64,000 nucleotides of DNA. Origin: a virus. The stretch covers positions 1-64,000 of the IMG/VR virus record IMGVR_UViG_3300050343_000255, one strand, 5' to 3'. Both the position numbers and the translations under genes were made by a program. The notes below the pieces were generated by a model. It searched no databases. It worked only from the letters and a program-made list of their open reading frames with translations, and was not told the origin of the DNA. The number at the start of each line of letters is the position of its first letter. The stretch's first letter is position 1. This document shows, one piece after another, positions 1,967 to 56,847 of the stretch.

Positions 1967-3505
1967 TTATAAATTAAAGCTGTCACTATTGTAGTCCATC
2001 TGCAAACTTCCTCTTCTTAGTAATCCACCCATAGTTAGTACCATTGAGTCTACAGCGTCGTCATGTGGTGAATGACCAAAGTTTAGTAGCTCTTCTTCAA
2101 GTACATCCCATTTACGCCACTTGTTCCAAACAACTTTTTTGTGTTCATATAAGCCAAGGACACCACGAAGCCTTGCAAGTTTGTCTCCTTTAAATCCTTT
2201 GACTGGTGATACAGATAAGTTATACAACGCACGCTGTTCGAGAATTATTCTTTTAAAGTCACCCTCAAATGAGTTTTGATAAGCAACGGCTTCAGGCCAT
2301 ATTATGCACGGCGACATTGTTGGAAAGAATTGACCTTCGTCATTCTCAAGAACAATATTCCAATCAGCAAGCATTTGGCAGAGCAGATCCATCTTATCGA
2401 GATTGCCCATCGTGCGAGCACGCCGTTGATCAATCATGTAAATTTTGCCTTCTTTGATTCCACCGAGAGTCATGACAGTCCAGTCATTCTTCTCTTTTAA
2501 TCCAGCACTAAGGTCAATTCCTACACCCAGACAGTCGTAATCCTCAGGTACTTCTCCTTTAATGATTAGCTCAGGAGAGATGCCTACATCAGTTGACTTG
2601 ACTGCAGTGTTTAGATACTGATATGCAAAGGCAACACGATCTTCCGTCTTACGTTCATTCAGGTATTTCATAGACCAGAACTCTGGCCAATATGATCTTT
2701 GCTTTCCGTCTGCGTCTGTTATGACTGCTCGCTGAACAATCTGTTTCCACTTGTTTTTTGGAACGAATAACGTGGCGTGAATATCGTCATAGTGGAAGCG
2801 GGTTCCCAAACAGATAGCCCGTGCACCTTGGAACATCGTTGGTGCGATAACGTTAGACCACGTCTGCTCCATCTCACGGCGAATGTCTGGGTTGTTGATC
2901 GAAGCGGCAGATTTGATAGGGTCATCAATAAGCACCAACTGCGATCGTTTAGAGGTGATTGCACCTTTGAGACCACCGCACGCAATTGTGAAAGCTTCTT
3001 CACCTGCTGTGTCAATTCCTGCAAACTCATAATCAATAGACCAATACTCATCCGAACGTTTTATTTTTGAGAGCCTTACCATCGGGAAGATCTCTCGATA
3101 TTTATTGCTTGTCAGTATTCCTTTAATCGTTGCTGACTTGGCACGACTGATGTCCACCATGTAAGCGATATATAGGATCCGTAGCATCTGCTTGGCAGCT
3201 GCATGTCGTCCAATCATCCAGGCTGCAAACAAACCAAGGACAGTACTTTTGGCAGAACCACGTGGTGCGAGGATCGAGGTGTTTGGACCTGCGATTCCAA
3301 TTAGGCATTCACTATCTTCTCCAGTACATAGCTCAGCATGCCACTCCAACATATGTTTTGCAGCAGGCTTTCCCATGAACTTACAAAAGTCTTGGAAGTT
3401 ATCTCTTGCTTTTAAAACATCTTCACTTGGTGGTTTGACAGTTACCTTTGTAGCTGTCATCAGTGCTATTCGTCTGTACGCTAATGACGCGCTAGGTATT
3501 GCCAT
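1967..3505 (-). CDS. terL: Terminase large subunit
   Basis: 512 residues. The ATPase half has a Walker A motif in ILAPRGSAKSTVLG and a Walker B in QLVLIDDP; IDD supplies the acidic residues. The C-terminal RNase H-fold nuclease shows its first acidic site in GVGIDLSAG and a late one in PHDDAVDSMV. The enzyme translocates DNA into the prohead and cuts the concatemer. Portal-like and candidate small-terminase genes lie either side. The first residues before MTATKVTV may be an over-long start; a shorter start at that Met is possible. Confidence 0.95.
   Translation of the reverse strand: MAIPSASLAYRRIALMTATKVTVKPPSEDVLKARDNFQDFCKFMGKPAAKHMLEWHAELCTGEDSECLIGIAGPNTSILAPRGSAKSTVLGLFAAWMIGRHAAAKQMLRILYIAYMVDISRAKSATIKGILTSNKYREIFPMVRLSKIKRSDEYWSIDYEFAGIDTAGEEAFTIACGGLKGAITSKRSQLVLIDDPIKSAASINNPDIRREMEQTWSNVIAPTMFQGARAICLGTRFHYDDIHATLFVPKNKWKQIVQRAVITDADGKQRSYWPEFWSMKYLNERKTEDRVAFAYQYLNTAVKSTDVGISPELIIKGEVPEDYDCLGVGIDLSAGLKEKNDWTVMTLGGIKEGKIYMIDQRRARTMGNLDKMDLLCQMLADWNIVLENDEGQFFPTMSPCIIWPEAVAYQNSFEGDFKRIILEQRALYNLSVSPVKGFKGDKLARLRGVLGLYEHKKVVWNKWRKWDVLEEELLNFGHSPHDDAVDSMVLTMGGLLRRGSLQMDYNSDSFNL
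1986..1993 (-). promoter_or_regulatory. TACAATAG late-type promoter element
   Basis: Exact TACAATAG on the minus strand, 28 bases upstream of the start codon of the 1083-1958 gene. One of nine exact copies in the window, nearly all upstream of virion-type genes. Confidence 0.5.
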
Positions 3506-25415: not shown

Positions 25416-26495
25416 ATGGCTTCAACTGTTATGCAGCGCTCCGGCGCTAAGAGTAACTGGGAAGAGTTTTGTAAGTGGGTTACGAGTACCAACAACCGTC
25501 TGTATGTCGGTTGGTTTGGCATCCTCATGATCCCTACGCTCCTCGCAGCGACTATTTGTTTTGTTATCGCCTTCGTTGGCGCACCACCTGTAGATATTGA
25601 TGGCATTCGTGAACCAGTTGCTGGATCGCTCCTATATGGAAACAACATTGTATCGGGAGCAGTCGTCCCGTCTAGCAACGCAATCGGACTCCACTTCTAC
25701 CCAATCTGGGAAGCAGCAACCCTCGACGAATGGCTCTACAACGGAGGACCATTCCAACTCGTTGTCTTCCACTTCCTTATCGGTATCTACGCTTACATGG
25801 GACGAGAATGGGAACTTAGCTACCGGCTAGGTATGCGCCCATGGATTTTCGTAGCATATAGCGCACCTGTAGCAGCAGCGTCTGCCGTGTTTCTTGTCTA
25901 TCCCTTTGGACAAGGATCCTTCTCTGACGCAATGCCTTTGGGCATCTCCGGTACATTCAACTATATGTTGGTGTTCCAGGCAGAGCATAATATCCTCATG
26001 CATCCGTTCCACATGCTTGGTGTGGCTGGTGTCTTCGGCGGAAGTTTATTTTCTGCTATGCACGGTTCTCTTGTTACATCATCTCTCGTGCGTGAAACCA
26101 CGGAGCAAGTGTCACAGAACTATGGCTACAAGTTTGGTCAAGAAGAAGAGACCTACAACATCGTGGCAGCACATGGCTACTTCGGTCGCTTGATCTTCCA
26201 ATATGCTTCCTTCAACAATTCCCGTTCACTGCACTTCTTTTTAGCTGCGTGGCCGGTAGTTGGTATTTGGTTCACCGCTCTTGGCGTGTCAACCATGGCC
26301 TTCAACCTCAATGGCTTCAACTTCAACCAGTCAATTGTTCACGGCGGTCACGTCGTTAACACCTGGGCAGACATTCTGAACCGTGCAGGTCTTGGTCTTG
26401 AAGTAATGCATGAAAGGAACGCACACAATTTCCCATTGGATCTTGCGTCCGCTTCTACATCCCAAGTGGCTTTGACCGCTCCAAGTATCGGTTGA
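25416..26495 (+). CDS. psbA: Photosystem II D1 protein
   Basis: 359 residues, full length. The redox tyrosine lies in LVYPFGQG (Tyr162, equal to Tyr161 in standard numbering because of one extra N-terminal residue). [12 protein letters not shown] puts Glu at the position equal to 130, the high-light D1 form. HPFHMLGV supplies a chlorophyll His. The C-terminal [14 protein letters not shown] carries the processing site. D1 turns over fastest in light, and phage copies keep photosynthesis going during infection. No intron interrupts it. Its 3' end overlaps an antisense nuclease gene. Confidence 0.99.
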
Positions 26496-26838
26496 GGTTA
26501 ATTAACCTTTGACCGTCATCATCTAACAAACCTAGGGCAGTGTTGCACTTATGACACAGTAAACCCCTAGGTTTTTCAGTATCGTGACAGTGGTCAATGC
26601 ATAAGCGTTCTTTAGAACCACAGACTTCACAAGCACCAGGTGCCAGTATTCTGTCAACCTCATCTTGTGTAAGCTTTAGCTTAAGTCTGATGCCACTATG
26701 TGGTCTCCAATTCTTCTTACGAACTTTAGTTGTGCATTTTTTGCACGCAGATTGCAGACCAACATTACCGGTTTTATAAGTTCTCTTATAGAAATTATCA
26801 TCTGATAATGATTGCCTGCATTCACAGCAGGTTTTCAC
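26455..26838 (-). CDS. HNH / endonuclease VII-type nuclease, antisense to psbA end
   Basis: 127 residues. Two cysteine pairs (CCECRQSL and CKKCTTK) near the N-terminus, then [17 protein letters not shown] and [17 protein letters not shown], the zinc-bound HNH core of the recombination endonuclease VII family. The last 41 bases of the gene lie inside the 3' end of psbA on the other strand. Free-standing nucleases of this type often home next to conserved genes. Resolution of DNA junctions is an alternative role. Confidence 0.88.
26496..26507 (+). promoter_or_regulatory. Palindrome after psbA stop
   Basis: GGTTAATTAACC, a perfect 12-base palindrome one base after the psbA TGA, followed by TTTG; possibly a weak terminator, lying inside the antisense nuclease gene. 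Confidence 0.35.
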
Positions 26839-27736: not shown

Positions 27737-27872
27737 ACAACTGCAAGATGTGATGCATGCAATTAGGTATTATCAATATCATCATGTCAGCATCAATAAT
27801 CCTCGTTATGAGGAATATTCAAATATATTAAAGCTACTAGCAAAAGAAAAACATAATGCGAATCTTTCTTGA
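27720..27872 (+). CDS. Tiny protein overlapping talC start
   Basis: 50 residues, Tyr/His-rich (HAIRYYQYHHVSINNPRYEE). The stop lies 17 bases inside talC, suggesting coupled translation. Unknown function. Confidence 0.5.
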   Translation: MELSVEQLQDVMHAIRYYQYHHVSINNPRYEEYSNILKLLAKEKHNANLS

Positions 27873-28530
27873 TACCGCAAACGTTGAAGATGTAGCAAAG
27901 CACTTTCTCACTGGACTAATTGATGGTGTCACTACTAACCCAACACTAATTAGAAAGTCAGGCAAAGAGCCTACTGATGTCTACAAGGAACTATCTCAAA
28001 TAGGTGTTCGTGATATCAGCATGGAAGTGTATGGGAGTGCAAAAGAAATGTATGAGACAGGCAAACAGCTTGCTCATGATTTCAATGGCGTTGCCACAAT
28101 CAAACTACCGATGACTAGATGTGGATTGCTTGCTTGTAAAGAGCTATCAAAAGATCACATCCGAACTAATGTCACGTTAGTATTCACAATTCCTCAAGCA
28201 ATTCTTGCAGCAAAAGCTGGTGCAACTTACGTTTCACCTTTTGTTGGACGACTAGATGATCAACAAGTGTCTGGTCTTGAAGTTGTCAGAGGAATTAAAG
28301 GATTGTATGCAGCAAAACATGTGGACACACAAGTTCTAGCTGCTTCAATTCGTAGTGTGCATAGAGCAGTCAGATCTTTCTATAACGGAGCTGATGTTGT
28401 GACTATGCCCCCTTCAGTGTTTGAGGATATGTATAAGCATATTCTTACTGATGCTGGATTAGAAATCTTTGAACAAGATATCGCACAAATCAAGTGCAAT
28501 AGTGTAAACTTTATTAAGGAATATAAATAA
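27856..28530 (+). CDS. talC: Transaldolase (TalC type)
   Basis: 224 residues, the short TalC/fructose-6-phosphate-aldolase length. MRIFLDTANVEDV opens the barrel, GVTTNPTLIRKSG is the next family block, and the Schiff-base Lys lies in VATIKLPMT. YVSPFVGRLDD follows. Phage TalC drives the pentose phosphate pathway to make NADPH and ribose for nucleotide synthesis, matching nrdAB and thyX downstream. It is followed by hli two bases on. Confidence 0.98.
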   Translation: MRIFLDTANVEDVAKHFLTGLIDGVTTNPTLIRKSGKEPTDVYKELSQIGVRDISMEVYGSAKEMYETGKQLAHDFNGVATIKLPMTRCGLLACKELSKDHIRTNVTLVFTIPQAILAAKAGATYVSPFVGRLDDQQVSGLEVVRGIKGLYAAKHVDTQVLAASIRSVHRAVRSFYNGADVVTMPPSVFEDMYKHILTDAGLEIFEQDIAQIKCNSVNFIKEYK

Positions 28531-28531
28531 A

Positions 28532-28723
28532 ATGACCGTAACTAATGAAGATCAAGGACGCCAAAACGTCTTTGCAAAAGAACCACAAATGCAAGTAATG
28601 GAGGTTACTGTGACTCACAACGAAAAAGCTGAAATGATGAATGGACGATTTGCAATGATTGGTGTCATTGCTGCTCTTGGTGCATACGCATTGACAGGAC
28701 AAATCATTCCTGGCATCTGGTAA
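28532..28723 (+). CDS. hli: High-light-inducible protein
   Basis: 63 residues. The chlorophyll-binding helix motif is EKAEMMNGRFAMIG, followed by VIAALGAYALTG. Hli proteins bind chlorophyll and protect photosystems. Directly follows talC and is probably co-transcribed; psbA lies 2 kb upstream. Confidence 0.97.
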   Translation: MTVTNEDQGRQNVFAKEPQMQVMEVTVTHNEKAEMMNGRFAMIGVIAALGAYALTGQIIPGIW

Positions 28724-28771: not shown

Positions 28772-28903
28772 ATGACACTAGGTGACGAAGCAGCTCAACG
28801 AAATACAAGAACTGATCAACGGTCAGTACAACCAGTTACACCTCCTACTGCACCAGCAAAAGTAGAAGAACCGGATTCAGCTCCATCTTCTAAAGAAGAA
28901 TAG
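28772..28903 (+). CDS. Tiny Pro/Glu-rich protein
   Basis: 43 residues, RSVQPVTPPTAPAKVEEP in the middle; likely disordered. Unknown function. Confidence 0.42.
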   Translation: MTLGDEAAQRNTRTDQRSVQPVTPPTAPAKVEEPDSAPSSKEE

Positions 28904-28943: not shown

Positions 28944-29681
28944 ATGTCTGCTGCAGAGGAAAATACTCGACGAATGCGAATGACCGCCAAAACTGGTACT
29001 CGCAATGTTAATAAGGTTACTATCAGTAACGTAGGTAATTCCTCGTCGTCTTCGACTAGCAACTCTAGTTCTAGTTCTAGTACTAAGCCTGAATCAAAAT
29101 CTAGTCCTAAGACTGAATCAAAAGCTAGTCCTAAGACTGAATCAAAAGCTAGTCCAAAGACTGAATCAAAACCTGAAACTAAATCAGAAGCTAAGTCTGA
29201 TAATAAGTCCCAAGGGAAATCAGATAGCACTAGGCAAAAAAAACTAGCTGAAGAAGCTAAAGCAAGGAAGGATTCTAAAGGTCCTAATAAGCCTGCAGTT
29301 GAGAAACCTTCAGGAATGGCAGTCAAAGAAGGTCGGCCATCATCTAAACGTTCAAGGCGTGTAAAGAAACTTACAAGAAAGCTTTCGATGGCGATGAAAA
29401 AGCGTCGCAAGCGTATTAAACGTAAGCTCAAAAAACTTGGAGCTAAAACATCTACAAGGCAGGCTAAAAAATCTGTCAGACAGAAAAGACGCACTAAGCG
29501 TATGGCTAGACGAGCAGCAATGCGAACACGGCAAATGCGTGCAAAACGTGCTCCAATGAAGTCACGTCCAAGGCGCTCACGTCCTATGAGGTCACGTCCT
29601 ATGAGGTCACGTCCTATGAGGTCACGTCCAATGCGTTCACGTCGTATGTCACGTAGAGGTGGACGTCGGATGAGGCGTTGA
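28944..29681 (+). CDS. Protamine/histone H1-like highly basic protein
   Basis: 245 residues. Residues 30-60 are Ser-rich, then three tandem SPKTESKA-type repeats, then a long Lys/Arg-rich second half (MKKRRKRIKRKLKKLGAK). The C-terminus is a tandem array of RPMRS-type pentapeptides. There is little hydrophobic core. Proteins like this condense DNA; it might pack phage DNA in the head or coat host DNA. I know of no family name. Confidence 0.7.
   Translation: MSAAEENTRRMRMTAKTGTRNVNKVTISNVGNSSSSSTSNSSSSSSTKPESKSSPKTESKASPKTESKASPKTESKPETKSEAKSDNKSQGKSDSTRQKKLAEEAKARKDSKGPNKPAVEKPSGMAVKEGRPSSKRSRRVKKLTRKLSMAMKKRRKRIKRKLKKLGAKTSTRQAKKSVRQKRRTKRMARRAAMRTRQMRAKRAPMKSRPRRSRPMRSRPMRSRPMRSRPMRSRRMSRRGGRRMRR
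29102..29172 (+). repeat. 24-base coding tandem repeat
   Basis: About three copies of a 24-base unit (AGTCCTAAGACTGAATCAAA core), encoding the SPKTESKA repeats of the basic protein. Confidence 0.75.
29566..29640 (+). repeat. 15-base coding tandem repeat
   Basis: Five units close to GTCCTATGAGGTCAC encode the RPMRS repeats. The three central units are identical in DNA, so recent slippage or recombination is likely. Confidence 0.8.
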
Positions 29682-29717: not shown

Positions 29718-29749
29718 CCATAGCCGCCGATTGGCGGCTATATTTATGG
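29718..29749 (+). terminator. Nested hairpin after the basic-protein gene
   Basis: TAGCCGCC-GATT-GGCGGCTA inside CCATA/TATGG arms. No long T-run. Confidence 0.5.
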
Positions 29750-29784
29750 AGTGGAGCAGAGCTCCGTAGTTTATATATCTATCA

Positions 29785-29952
29785 ATGGAAATATCCAGAG
29801 AACTGTCTACAGAGATCAAGGAAGTCATCGAAGATACTGTCCAGTACTTCTGTGACCAAAACACTGTTTCCGGTGAACTCACTTGGATTCTTGTCGAATG
29901 TCTAGCTACAGCAAAGCTTGCTGAGCTAAGAGGTGAGCTCGCCCCTGTTTAA
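29785..29952 (+). CDS. Tiny acidic helical protein
   Basis: 55 residues (ELSTEIKEVIEDTVQYFCDQ), helical. Its TAA shares a base with the next ATG. Unknown function. Confidence 0.55.
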   Translation: MEISRELSTEIKEVIEDTVQYFCDQNTVSGELTWILVECLATAKLAELRGELAPV

Positions 29953-33886: not shown

Positions 33887-35308
33887 ATGGAAAAAAATCA
33901 AGTCATTGCTCGCACTGGTCGAGTACAAAATTGGATTGACGATCCTACAAGTCGCCTGCCCGTCAGCTGCACAGTTTTTGTGGTGGATGACAGCATGGAG
34001 GGACCTAACGGAATCGAGGCTAGCTGGCGCTACGTGAGTCACGGTTACGTTTTGGAGCAGGGGTTGCTGTACACCTATCCAATCTCCGTCCTGCAGGACA
34101 TGACAATGGCAAAGGACTAGTAAGTTCCGGGCCATGTTCGTTTGGCAAAATTTATAGTTGTCTGAACGAGCAGTTACGTAGAGGTGGTGTATACAAAAAC
34201 GGTGCCGTAGTGCTGCACCTCGATTTAAACCACAAGGATATTCTTGAGTTTGTCAATATGCCTAGGCATGAAATTCCTTGGGCAAAACGTTGCGTCAACT
34301 TGTCCAACGTAATGTGGGATATGGCAATCCCTGCAGTCAAGGATGCAATCATCAAAGGTATTGCTCGTGGTGACATTTGGCTAGCCAAGATTAGGCATGA
34401 TCAACACGGTGAAAGAATTTTCGCGAACGTTTGCCTTGAAGTCTTCCTGCGTAGCAGGGGTACTTGTCTCTTGGAGCACATAAATTTGGGTGCTTGTCGT
34501 GCTGAAGATTTACCTGCTGCATTTATTTGCGGCATGGAAGAACTAATTGATTTACATGGTAAAACTGGTGTTGAGAAAACTGGCGAGTATCTTTCTCAAG
34601 AAGAAGATCGCCAAGTCGGTTTGGGAATGCTTGGTCTCGCCAATTTGCTTGCGCTGGAAGGAGTTACGTATGCTCAATTCGGAGAAGCTTTAAACGAGCA
34701 TCTGTATCCCTTTAGGTGATTACATCGTGACTCCTGAAGCACGTAATATAGTTAAAGCACTTCAATTAGGAATTGATTCCGCTGCTGCTATTGCAAGTCG
34801 AGCCAATATGGATCGTTGCTTTGCTATTGCACCTACGGCGTCTTGTTCCTATCGCTACAAAGACAGAGCAGGCTATACAACTACCCCCGAACTTGCACCG
34901 CCAATCGGGCGTACAGTTGATAGGGACAGCTCTACATTCGGTGTCGAGACATTTGACTACGGTGATGTTGAAACAGCTGAATCTGTTGGGTGGGACACTT
35001 ACTACCGCGTAGTAAATGGCATCATGACAATGCTGTCAAACACTGGCCTCAACCATGGATATAGTTTCAACAGTTGGTCAGATGTAGTTCAATACGACGA
35101 TGCCTTCATTGAATCCTGGCTAAGTTCTCCGCAAACCTCTATGTATTATTCATTGCAGGTTATGCAGAACACTCAAGCAAAAGACGATGCTCTTGCTGCT
35201 TTAGATGGAAACTTCGGTGAGATGTTTGGATTCAATGATGATGATGCCGACGATGACATTTTAGATGTCTTTAACGACCCCGCATCCTGCGTAGGGTGCG
35301 CCGAGTAA
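33887..35308 (+). CDS. nrdA: Ribonucleotide reductase large subunit, two frameshifts in this sequence
   Basis: The three frame pieces read as one NrdA: 33887-~34043, ~34043-~34705, ~34705-35308. Near 34043 the frame should pass from WRYVSHG to RFGAGVAVHL; near 34705 from NEHLY to PLGDYIVTPEAR (an extra C in CCC). Active-site residues are visible: Asn-x-Cys-x-Glu in ANVCLEVFL, a second Cys in GTCLLEHINLG, PTASCSYRY, and the C-terminal CVGC pair. No N-terminal ATP-cone is present, as in short cyanophage class I enzymes. It makes dNTPs with NrdB. Breaks are likely sequence errors. Confidence 0.88.
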
Positions 35309-51886: not shown

Positions 51887-51940
51887 TCTCACAATTGCTT
51901 TTAATAAACTGTAGACTTTTACTAGAATTATTTAAAATAT

Positions 51941-52339
51941 GAATCTAGAATTATCCGAACTATATCTAAATCCAATATTGTTATAGCTAGTTCCAAGGTC
52001 CATCGCTGGGGCGTTTTTGCTCATAAAGATATTGCCAAGCACGATGTATTGCAAGAGTCTCCCTATTGTACTTTCTCTACAAAAGAGCTTAAGAAAAAAT
52101 CTGATGTAGTTGTTCGCTATACCTATGACTCATATGACAATCCAGGAGCAGATGACGTTGTACTTGGATTTGGGTTTGCAGCTTTGTATAACCACTCATC
52201 CAGTAACAATGCAGCTTATGAGCTAGATACTGTTAATGAGGTCATGCGCCATTACGCAGTAGAAGATATTCCTGCCGGTTCAGAAATCTTCATTGACTAT
52301 GGATATGAAGATGATGATTGTAATTTTGGAGATTACTAA
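51941..52339 (+). CDS. SET-domain protein (probable lysine methyltransferase), frameshifted near start
   Basis: From ATG 51941 (MNLELSELYLNP) the frame stops early. One extra base near 51980 joins it to IVIASSKVHRWGVFAHKDIA, the start of a SET fold. The core follows: FGFAALYNHSSSNNAAYE (NHS-x3-N) and IPAGSEIFIDYGYE. SET enzymes methylate lysines using S-adenosylmethionine. The intact frame alone begins at 52049. Substrate unknown. Confidence 0.75.
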   Translation, partial: ESRIIRTISKSNIVIASSKVHRWGVFAHKDIAKHDVLQESPYCTFSTKELKKKSDVVVRYTYDSYDNPGADDVVLGFGFAALYNHSSSNNAAYELDTVNEVMRHYAVEDIPAGSEIFIDYGYEDDDCNFGDY

Positions 52340-54991: not shown

Positions 54992-55140
54992 TAACCTTTG
55001 CCTCGCTGCATTACTTTACGCATTTTCTTATCCTTGAAATCTTGAGCATCAGGTTCTTTAGATGCTTCTTTCATAGGTTCTTGTTTGTCCCCATCTCCAT
55101 CAATATCAAGGAAATCAGGTTTCATGCTTTGTCCTGGCAT
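54991..55140 (-). CDS. Tiny protein with Asp-rich calcium-loop-like motif
   Basis: 49 residues. PDFLDIDGDGDKQEPMKEA is a dockerin-like loop, echoing DVDKDGVDDNQD in the 4363-4896 protein. Lys-rich tail. Stop and start overlap with neighbours. Unknown function. Confidence 0.55.
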   Translation of the reverse strand: MPGQSMKPDFLDIDGDGDKQEPMKEASKEPDAQDFKDKKMRKVMQRGKG

Positions 55141-55376
55141 CAGTCTTTACTAATAATGTTTTTATAGAAGTTAGCCTTCTTCTTCATTTTAGATGATGCA
55201 TCTGAATCATTTAAAACTTCATTAGCAAAAGCCTTACGTCCTTCTGGTGTATCTGGATGTCCAGCTTTTGTTGCTGCAGCAGTGAAGGTTCCTTTAGTTC
55301 CACCTTTCTTGCCATGCGACATTTTCTTGAATGCTTTGGCTAAGCCTTTTGCCTGCTTGCGGGGTTCCTTTGACAT
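55140..55376 (-). CDS. Small basic protein
   Basis: 78 residues (QAKGLAKAFKKMSHGKKGG ... KAFANEVLND), Lys/Gly-rich. May bind DNA or be structural. One of a run of small basic genes that are common near cyanophage tail genes. Confidence 0.58.
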   Translation of the reverse strand: MSKEPRKQAKGLAKAFKKMSHGKKGGTKGTFTAAATKAGHPDTPEGRKAFANEVLNDSDASSKMKKKANFYKNIISKD

Positions 55377-55631
55377 TACGAACGATGCTTAGAAGTTTTC
55401 TTGGCAACATCTTTAGGCTGCTTACTGAACTGCTGACCTTTACGAGCAGCAGCGCGTTTTTTAGCAGTACTTCTTGCATACTCTTCATCAGTCAAAGCTT
55501 CCCTAGCTTTCTTAGGCAGGTAGCGTTCACCAGTTGCTTTCTTGCCTTGAGTACTGTTTTTACCCTGACTTAGTACCCCAATCTTCTTTAGTCCAACTAT
55601 CTAGAGAATTTTGTGATTTTGCTTTAGCCAT
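55376..55631 (-). CDS. Small basic protein, frameshifted
   Basis: ATG 55629-55631 gives NSLDSWTKEDWGTKSG then stops. One base shift at GGGTAAAAAC restores KNSTQGKKATGERYLPKKA ... AARKGQQFSKQPKDVAKK to the stop at 55376-55378. Basic, helical; unknown function. Confidence 0.5.
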
Positions 55632-55814
55632 TAGTCTTTATACCCGCCACCTTTGGCTTTATATTGCTTGGCTAACATCTGTGCTTTACGAGCAGACCAC
55701 TGACCAGGCTTTCCACCTTTACCACTAGCTTTAATTTGAGAGAATAGTTTCTTACGCATACCTGGCATTGTGTAATTGCCAGCTTCGTTGACTTTATGAT
55801 TTCTTGTCAGCCAT
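55631..55814 (-). CDS. Small basic protein, frameshifted
   Basis: ATG 55812-55814 gives MADKKS then stops. A shift at AAATCATAAA restores HKVNEAGNYTMPGMRKKLF ... GGKPGQWSARKAQMLAKQY to the stop at 55631. The joined protein is of a kind common in cyanophages. Unknown function. Confidence 0.55.
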
Positions 55815-56256
55815 CAGTCTGCTCCATCATGTATTCATCTGACCCTTCTTGATTATATTCATTTTTTGGCATGCATTCATCGGTAATTGGTCCTCCATGC
55901 ACCCAAGCATCACATGTACGATCGCCTGCACATTTAAATTTAAATAGCTGACAATAACCAATGTTGGCATTCATGATGACCTTACGTGGATCAACGTATG
56001 GCTCTTCATCTGTACCAATGCCTTTGCCAATGCAGCACATGACTTTCCATGTCTGATCGAACGCGGCACAGTTACCACAGCGGGTAGACTTTGCCTCTTC
56101 AACTGATGTATGAAAGATGTCTGCCTTTTGTTCCCAGAACTCATCGTTAGGGAAGGACCATCGAAGGATTGTCCAATTTCATTCTTTGGAACATCTTGAT
56201 AACCTGAAACGTGTCCTAAGTTCGCCTTGCGTCCTTGATAATTAAAATTCGAACAT
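55807..56256 (-). CDS. Cysteine-rich protein, frameshifted
   Basis: Intact frame 55807-56040 continues upstream in the same frame (CGNCAAFDQTWKVMCCIG) and, by two one-base shifts (TTCGATGG and a TTTT run), to an ATG at 56254-56256 (FNYQGRKANLGHVSGYQDV). The body has many Cys (CGNC, MCC, YCQLFKFKCAGDRTCDAW) suited to a metal or Fe-S cluster. Function unknown. Confidence 0.5.
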
Positions 56257-56436
56257 TTAATATTCAATTTAGTATTCAACAATAATAAGGCCGTGAACAT
56301 CAGTACAAACGGCTGAGTTAGCGTAAAGAATTGCATTAATGAAAGAGTTCCCAGCCACGCACTAATGACTTCACTACTTAGATGATATTAGCTGTAACCT
56401 CGTGACGTCTCTGATGAAATAACAACAATTACTTAC

Positions 56437-56535
56437 TTAAGCTTCTGCAATTGCTTCTGCTTCTTCTAGCTGTGAGCTTCGCGCAATGAAGCAGCACCCA
56501 TCATTAGGCAAACCTTGATAATCCTTTGTCCACAA
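56437..56535 (-). CDS. Possible tiny protein
   Basis: 32-codon frame from TTG 56535 (DYQGLPNDGCCFIARSSQLE) to TAA 56437-56439. Reads like protein, but the start is doubtful and an upstream shift may join it to more sequence. Confidence 0.3.
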   Translation of the reverse strand: MWTKDYQGLPNDGCCFIARSSQLEEAEAIAEA

Positions 56536-56571
56536 TCATTAGTCACCATTTTATGTGACCAGTAACGTGCA

Positions 56572-56847
56572 CTAAAAATGATCTGGCTTACTATCCTGTG
56601 CATTATGCCTAGCGTAGTAAGACTTCTTACGTGCTTTGTCTTTTGCAGACTTAGGATTTTTACCAGCACCTTTTACGCCTTGCTGACCAAAACGGATGAT
56701 CTTTTCTTTACCGTTTTTACAGGCTTTTACAACGTGTGATTTTGTTGCGTGACCTTTAGTACGCATTGGTTTATTGCACTTAAGTTTATCTTTGTCTAAG
56801 TGAGACTTAGCTTTTGATTTAGCTTTAGCGCGAGCAGATGCTGCCAT
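56572..56847 (-). CDS. Basic Lys-rich protein
   Basis: 91 residues: basic N-terminus (ARAKAKSKAKSHLDKDKL), then KCNKPMRTKGHATKSHVVKA and IIRFGQQGVKGAGKNPKSA. Resembles a small basic protein type shared by cyanophages and large DNA viruses; function unknown. AATAATAG lies 19 bases upstream. Confidence 0.62.
   Translation of the reverse strand: MAASARAKAKSKAKSHLDKDKLKCNKPMRTKGHATKSHVVKACKNGKEKIIRFGQQGVKGAGKNPKSAKDKARKKSYYARHNAQDSKPDHF

Follow-up and report, generated by a model that had tools for sequence, protein, structure and literature searches.

The internal proteins of the T-even phages are carried in the head and combine a conserved targeting leader with a diverse remainder (PMC3012670, PMC7697877), and phage DNA binders of the host-takeover type are exemplified by T4 MotB, for which KOW and OB-fold domains are predicted and which shows high conservation among the T-even phages (PMC7827196). 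The general view is that cations and polyamines neutralise phage DNA, evidence for much contribution from basic proteins being absent (PMC3281028). The subject here is a gene for a highly basic repeat protein in positions 1 to 64,000 of the IMG/VR virus record IMGVR_UViG_3300050343_000255; this 64,000-nucleotide stretch, referred to below as the window, is part of a 106,357-base virus record. The composition and position of the protein, and the lineage-specific, in-frame expansion of its repeats, fit a nucleic-acid-condensing polycation, and the interpretation tentatively preferred, at rather less than an even chance, is that this phage polycation condenses or coats DNA inside the infected cell.

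Like IPI, IPII and IPIII of T4, the window protein has a short conserved N-terminus and a highly diverse remainder (PMC3012670, PMC7697877), but no shared sequence was found, no maturation protease was recognised, and it is predicted to be mostly disordered whereas IPI* has a compact fold. It would resemble MotB in binding DNA non-specifically during host takeover, in the early or middle phase (PMC7827196), but it has neither high conservation nor KOW and OB-fold domains: Pfam and PDB gave no match, and the predicted model is devoid of beta structure. The likeness to linker histone H1 and to chlamydial and bacterial H1-like proteins lies in Lys/Ser/Pro/Ala-rich repeats and a basic tail, and that to protamines and viral protamine-like proteins (baculovirus P6.9, adenovirus VII and mu) in an Arg-rich low-complexity array. 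An earlier, sequence-only reading of this DNA had called the protein H1/protamine-like; this likeness is one of composition and not of family membership, as no credible Pfam, NCBIfam or PDB profile match was obtained and the model has no winged helix. There is no globular H1 domain and no Pfam Linker_histone match, the model containing only helices and disorder. Compared with protamines the protein is longer, at 245 aa with 35% K+R, uses both K (40 residues) and R, has a conserved leader that is not Arg-rich, and matches no protamine family or sequence.

Charge, repeats and predicted structure of the basic protein

The features of the gene are as follows.

28944..29681, + strand: basic repeat protein, 245 aa, net charge +70; intact open reading frame (ORF) from ATG to TGA; orthologues at the loci L002, L003, L005, L114 and L126
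28944..29042, + strand: conserved N-terminal leader MSAAEENTRRMRMTAKTGTRNVNKVTISNVGNS, with MSAAEENTR invariant in 6/6 orthologues
29077..29171, + strand: 24-bp tandem array encoding SPKTESKA (Tandem Repeats Finder, TRF: 4.0 copies, 94% match, score 162)
29346..29549, + strand: predicted basic alpha-helical segment, residues 135-202, most residues with a predicted local distance difference test score (pLDDT) > 90
29552..29648, + strand: 15-bp tandem array encoding RPMRS (TRF: 6.5 copies, score 124)

From N- to C-terminus the protein comprises the conserved leader, a Ser/Lys-rich spacer that is mostly disordered, a basic segment predicted to be helical, and an array rich in Arg and Met. The composition (K40, R45, S42, M16, with no cysteine) favours the DNA-condensing interpretation in its charge, its isoelectric point of 12 and its complete lack of aromatic residues. 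The charge is uneven, +12 across residues 1-120 and +58 across residues 121-245, and in basicity this ORF far exceeds every other on the 106-kb contig, its best 60-residue charge window being +32 against +18 for the runner-up.

Both arrays described in the sequence-only reading are present: TRF confirms four 24-bp SPKTESKA units, and the exact 15-bp RPMRS unit CGTCCTATGAGGTCA stands three in a row, at 29580, 29595 and 29610, with diverged units on either side. Chance is ruled out by the TRF scores, and the proposed recent expansion is backed by the three identical units together with the differing arrays of each relative. The suggested resemblance of SPKTESKA to H1 tails is weak, because the repeat block is almost charge-neutral (+2 per 30 residues; net +4 over residues 31-90) and the charge lies in residues 121-245; the repeat is not of the S/TPKK type of DNA-binding H1 tails.

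Searches with the basic protein returned nothing credible from phages (tblastn, with the full protein and with the N-terminus alone) or from Pfam, PHROGs, PDB, NCBIfam and PADLOC, and no relative was found in prokaryote genomes. The sole Pfam match at E<=1 was Trypan_PARP (0.93); an NCBIfam match to SdrC (3.5e-4) was rejected as Ser-rich low complexity, far below the SdrC cut-off.

The model of the window protein, built with no templates and from an alignment of six sequences only, has a short N-terminal helix (residues 3-14), a disordered half and the long helix at residues 135-202. When the L114 orthologue is modelled alone, about 77 disordered residues are followed by helices mostly with pLDDT above 90, which match a repeated basic hairpin, MMRIKSLRNQRKAAKQSGN-KLAKKLSMRIMRIRRK, and a basic helical-hairpin module is recognisable in the C-terminal part of L003, L005, L114 and L126. 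High pLDDT in isolated basic helices is no proof of a fold, and a search of the PDB with the L114 model gave nothing significant. For proteins that are rich in Arg, disordered and helix-forming, RNA is as ready a binding partner as DNA, and the protein might act on RNA or ribosomes, altering translation or protecting phage mRNA; this is improbable, no significant match to an RNA-binding domain or ribosomal protein having been found. The Met, Ile and Leu residues in the L114 hairpins would suit a cationic membrane-active protein serving lysis or disruption of the envelope, but such a role is very unlikely given a hydrophobic content of only 1-14% across the proteins found at this position in the window and its relatives, and placement with genes of the middle class.

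A conserved leader and a diverging remainder

Proteins of the MSAAEENTR type occupy the same place in L002, L003, L005, L114 and L126, making six loci with the window, all sharing the gene order psbA…talC-hli-43-aa acidic ORF-basic ORF. In 6/6 of these loci the basic gene is preceded by the 43-aa ORF, whose N-terminal motif is EAAxxxTR and which no other surveyed locus contains. The conserved N-terminus comprises 33-44 residues in all six orthologues, and in L005 both ends of the protein are kept, MSAAEENTR at the start and SRRMSRRGGRRMRR at the end. Among L003, L114 and L126 the leader has 98% amino acid identity at a proportion of synonymous differences (pS) of 0.45-0.68, giving a ratio of nonsynonymous to synonymous change (dN/dS) of about 0.03 (three pairs), and the full-length proteins are only 40-46% identical; for talC of these genomes dN/dS is about 0.03-0.15 where computable. 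Judged by these codon comparisons, the leader of the three is under strong purifying selection. Constraint on the leader is not uniform, because the window-L005 pair has a higher dN/dS of 0.50 (34 codons).

Beyond the leader, each lineage has different in-frame arrays, with principal periods that are multiples of three (15, 18, 21, 24, 42 and 132 bp). Lysine count varies from 40 in the window protein to 0 in the first ORF of L002, which has 54 arginines instead; across the orthologues charge is retained and residue identity is not. An N-terminus under purifying selection, joined to a remainder that drifts in sequence while its composition is kept, favours the DNA-condensing interpretation. L114 has two basic ORFs with repeats, in different frames; close to the end of the first, at L114:4030-4090, ten consecutive A occur, representing slippage, error or frameshifting.

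The conserved leader and hypervariable remainder are also the basis of the strongest rival, a virion protein of the T4-internal type, in which the leader would be a head-targeting signal and the basic remainder would be packaged and injected, shielding DNA or blocking host defence. A match of the hairpin module to an ORF just after the terminase gene in the related genomes G024 and G026 points the same way, but as a single match (E 2e-4) it is too weak for homology to be built on it. No head protein bears a leader-like N-terminus, AAxxNTR being confined in the window genome to the 43-aa ORF and the adjacent basic ORF. Neither was a head-maturation protease recognised by Pfam or the listed PHROGs families (25/30) among the 35 structural-strand ORFs scanned, a subset of all ORFs, and the gene lies in a metabolic block on the opposite strand. 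Such a packaged protein is judged unlikely, if not negligibly so.

Genomic context

The large terminase subunit (TerL) is 54.8% identical to that of Synechococcus phage S-EIV1 over 97% of its length, and a virion protein, for which S-EIV1 was the sole phage match, is 46.6% identical over 67%. On these two proteins the window genome is that of an uncultured relative of S-EIV1, and a related terminase is encoded in at least 227 viral-contig stretches. Neither the basic protein nor its neighbour g213 had a match among annotated phages. Sequence from window 1-25000 recurs at contig 81.9-106.4 kb, the other end of the record, with 72-99% DNA identity (85-95% for the most part); the record hence amounts to a single genome of about 82 kb and an overlapping piece of a sister strain. 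The nearest relative of near-full length has 82,299 bases. The features around the basic gene are listed below.

25416..26495, + strand: psbA (photosystem II D1), 2.4 kb upstream of the basic gene, with talC, hli and small ORFs between
27856..28530, + strand: talC (transaldolase)
28532..28723, + strand: hli (high-light-inducible protein), left border of the slot that holds the basic gene
28772..28903, + strand: 43-aa ORF with an acidic tail and N-terminal LGDEAAxxNTR, between hli and the basic gene
29721..29740, + strand: G+C-rich terminator-like hairpin TAGCCGCC-GATT-GGCGGCTA, directly 3' of the basic gene, read from the sequence
29785..29952, + strand: g55, conserved 55-aa acidic ORF, right border of the slot

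A second terminator-like match lies at 29744-29769. The basic gene had been placed directly after psbA-talC-hli in the sequence-only reading; talC and hli are indeed adjacent, save for the 43-aa ORF, which had been missed, but psbA is not. The statement that it lies away from the head genes is right, because the major head protein (contig 75351-76256, - strand), the terminase (1967-3505, - strand) and the tail genes are all on the opposite strand.

Three further observations concern the surrounding genome. An HNH-type endonuclease-like ORF overlaps the end of psbA (window 26455-26838, - strand) and a LAGLIDADG-like ORF occupies the same place beside psbA in L005 (2904-3233), both being named from motifs only, and different homing-endonuclease-like genes may thus stand beside psbA in different relatives. 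The large subunit of ribonucleotide reductase (window 33887-35308) is split over several frames, being a single ORF of ~470-513 aa in most relatives, and the split is put down to frameshifts or assembly errors in the window contig. Small Lys/Gly-rich basic proteins near the tail genes (window 55140-56847, - strand) are conserved throughout the lineage, one of them matching phrog_7595 (unknown function).

Basic proteins in the slot among relatives

Using a conserved downstream ORF as an anchor, 29 loci were gathered; with the slot defined as the interval between hli and g55, both borders were in view in 21 sequence clusters, which, as related phages, are not independent of one another (the g55 pattern of the script missed L117/L003, and this one was added by hand). 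A strongly basic ORF was present in the slot in 13/21 clusters and absent from the remaining 8. Outside the slot the same basicity criterion selected 10 of 1059 ORFs of >=80 aa (about 1%), all of them small, on the other strand and near tail genes. Among the basic slot proteins at least six types can be told apart, with no detectable similarity between them: MSAAEENTR, L107/L109, L111, L120 (perhaps with L121), L123 and L129. Homology between the types was rejected on block-shuffle alignment scores, which separate at least six and left only weak signals for L120-L121 and L114b-L129. With so many unrelated types, repeated replacement by proteins of the same composition is the simplest reading, and the survey suggests that charge rather than sequence is under selection at the slot. 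Met-rich proteins (MPMPKPM and MNMPMNMP repeats) occur in the same slot just upstream of g55 at L109:4051-4692 and L112:3-395.

Arrays that are different in every lineage, the broken frame of L114 and the second basic ORF that L002 has in another frame would suit a low-complexity by-product of repeat slippage with little function. This is hardly probable: the dN/dS of the N-terminus is about 0.03, the slot proteins have open frames of 113-310 aa, and charge is kept across unrelated replacements.

Proposed function

For a T4-like Prochlorococcus cyanophage, transcription of the metabolic genes (psbA, talC, hli, nrd) is confined to the middle cluster, and degradation of host genomic DNA begins at 1.5 h in the light (PMC5082946). 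If the same timing holds here, the basic protein would be made with the middle genes and would appear at the time of host DNA breakdown and phage DNA replication; its position among photosynthesis and metabolism genes, on the opposite strand from the head, tail and packaging genes, favours a role inside the cell. As a DNA-condensing polycation, its Arg/Lys region would bind DNA phosphates irrespective of sequence, compacting or coating the DNA, the target being the host nucleoid or replicating phage DNA. The leader would recruit the protein by binding a specific partner, perhaps jointly with the product of the adjacent 43-aa ORF, and the repeats may tune length and charge through slippage or recombination.

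Several points weigh against this interpretation. The slot is without a basic protein in four near-complete genomes, G023, G002 and G030 of the slot survey and also G003, and the isolate S-EIV1, in which a simple motif search found neither hli nor psbA, has no comparable basic ORF anywhere in its genome. The absence of such a protein from eight clusters, G003 and S-EIV1 means that its function is dispensable or met otherwise. The middle expression class is borrowed from another phage type, no database names the protein, and polycations also bind RNA, ribosomes and membranes. The protein is real, specific to its lineage and fast-evolving; by kind it would be a viral basic nucleic-acid-binding protein, with a function proposed from composition and position.

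Possible modifying enzymes and wider significance

A candidate modifying enzyme is encoded elsewhere in the window.

51926..52336, + strand: SET-domain ORF; the best solved relative is vSET, the PBCV-1 histone H3K27 methyltransferase (E 1.2e-7)

SET-domain ORFs with NHx...YG motifs are also found at L109:3476-3856 and in L165-L167, again with PBCV-1 vSET as the best PDB match; vSET is packaged by PBCV-1 (PMC7019647). The window copy is without the start found in relatives. In L109 the SET gene is directly 3' of the slot protein, and in L111 a RimK-like ATP-grasp gene (2101-2961) immediately precedes the gene of a slot protein that is rich in Gly, Arg, Lys and Pro and has repeated GEGG-like motifs; the two could form a peptide-modification pair. 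Annotated phages seldom carry SET (two near-duplicate records), and it also occurs on contigs for which the terminase search gave no relative of the window terminase. It is present in G000, G017, G019, G001, G026 and the fragment G031, and absent from G024, G023, G002, G030, G003 and S-EIV1. Among near-complete genomes it occurs in 5/6 with a basic slot protein and 0/5 without, these lineages not being independent.

An obligate pairing of SET enzyme and slot protein as substrate is ruled out by G017 (L002), which carries SET although its first slot protein has no lysine and its second only one; the carriers, moreover, mostly share ancestry. It is accordingly only as a highly doubtful proposition that a phage 'chromatin' system may be envisaged, in which the binding of a fast-evolving H1/protamine-like protein would be tuned by a vSET-like methyltransferase of the phage and, in L111, by a RimK-like ligase.

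That a widespread lineage of marine cyanophages has repeatedly installed unrelated, highly basic proteins at one locus beside its photosynthesis genes is a sign of a polycation function which, judging by the searches made, has had no name in these phages. The conserved leader provides a concrete handle for finding the partner of the basic protein.
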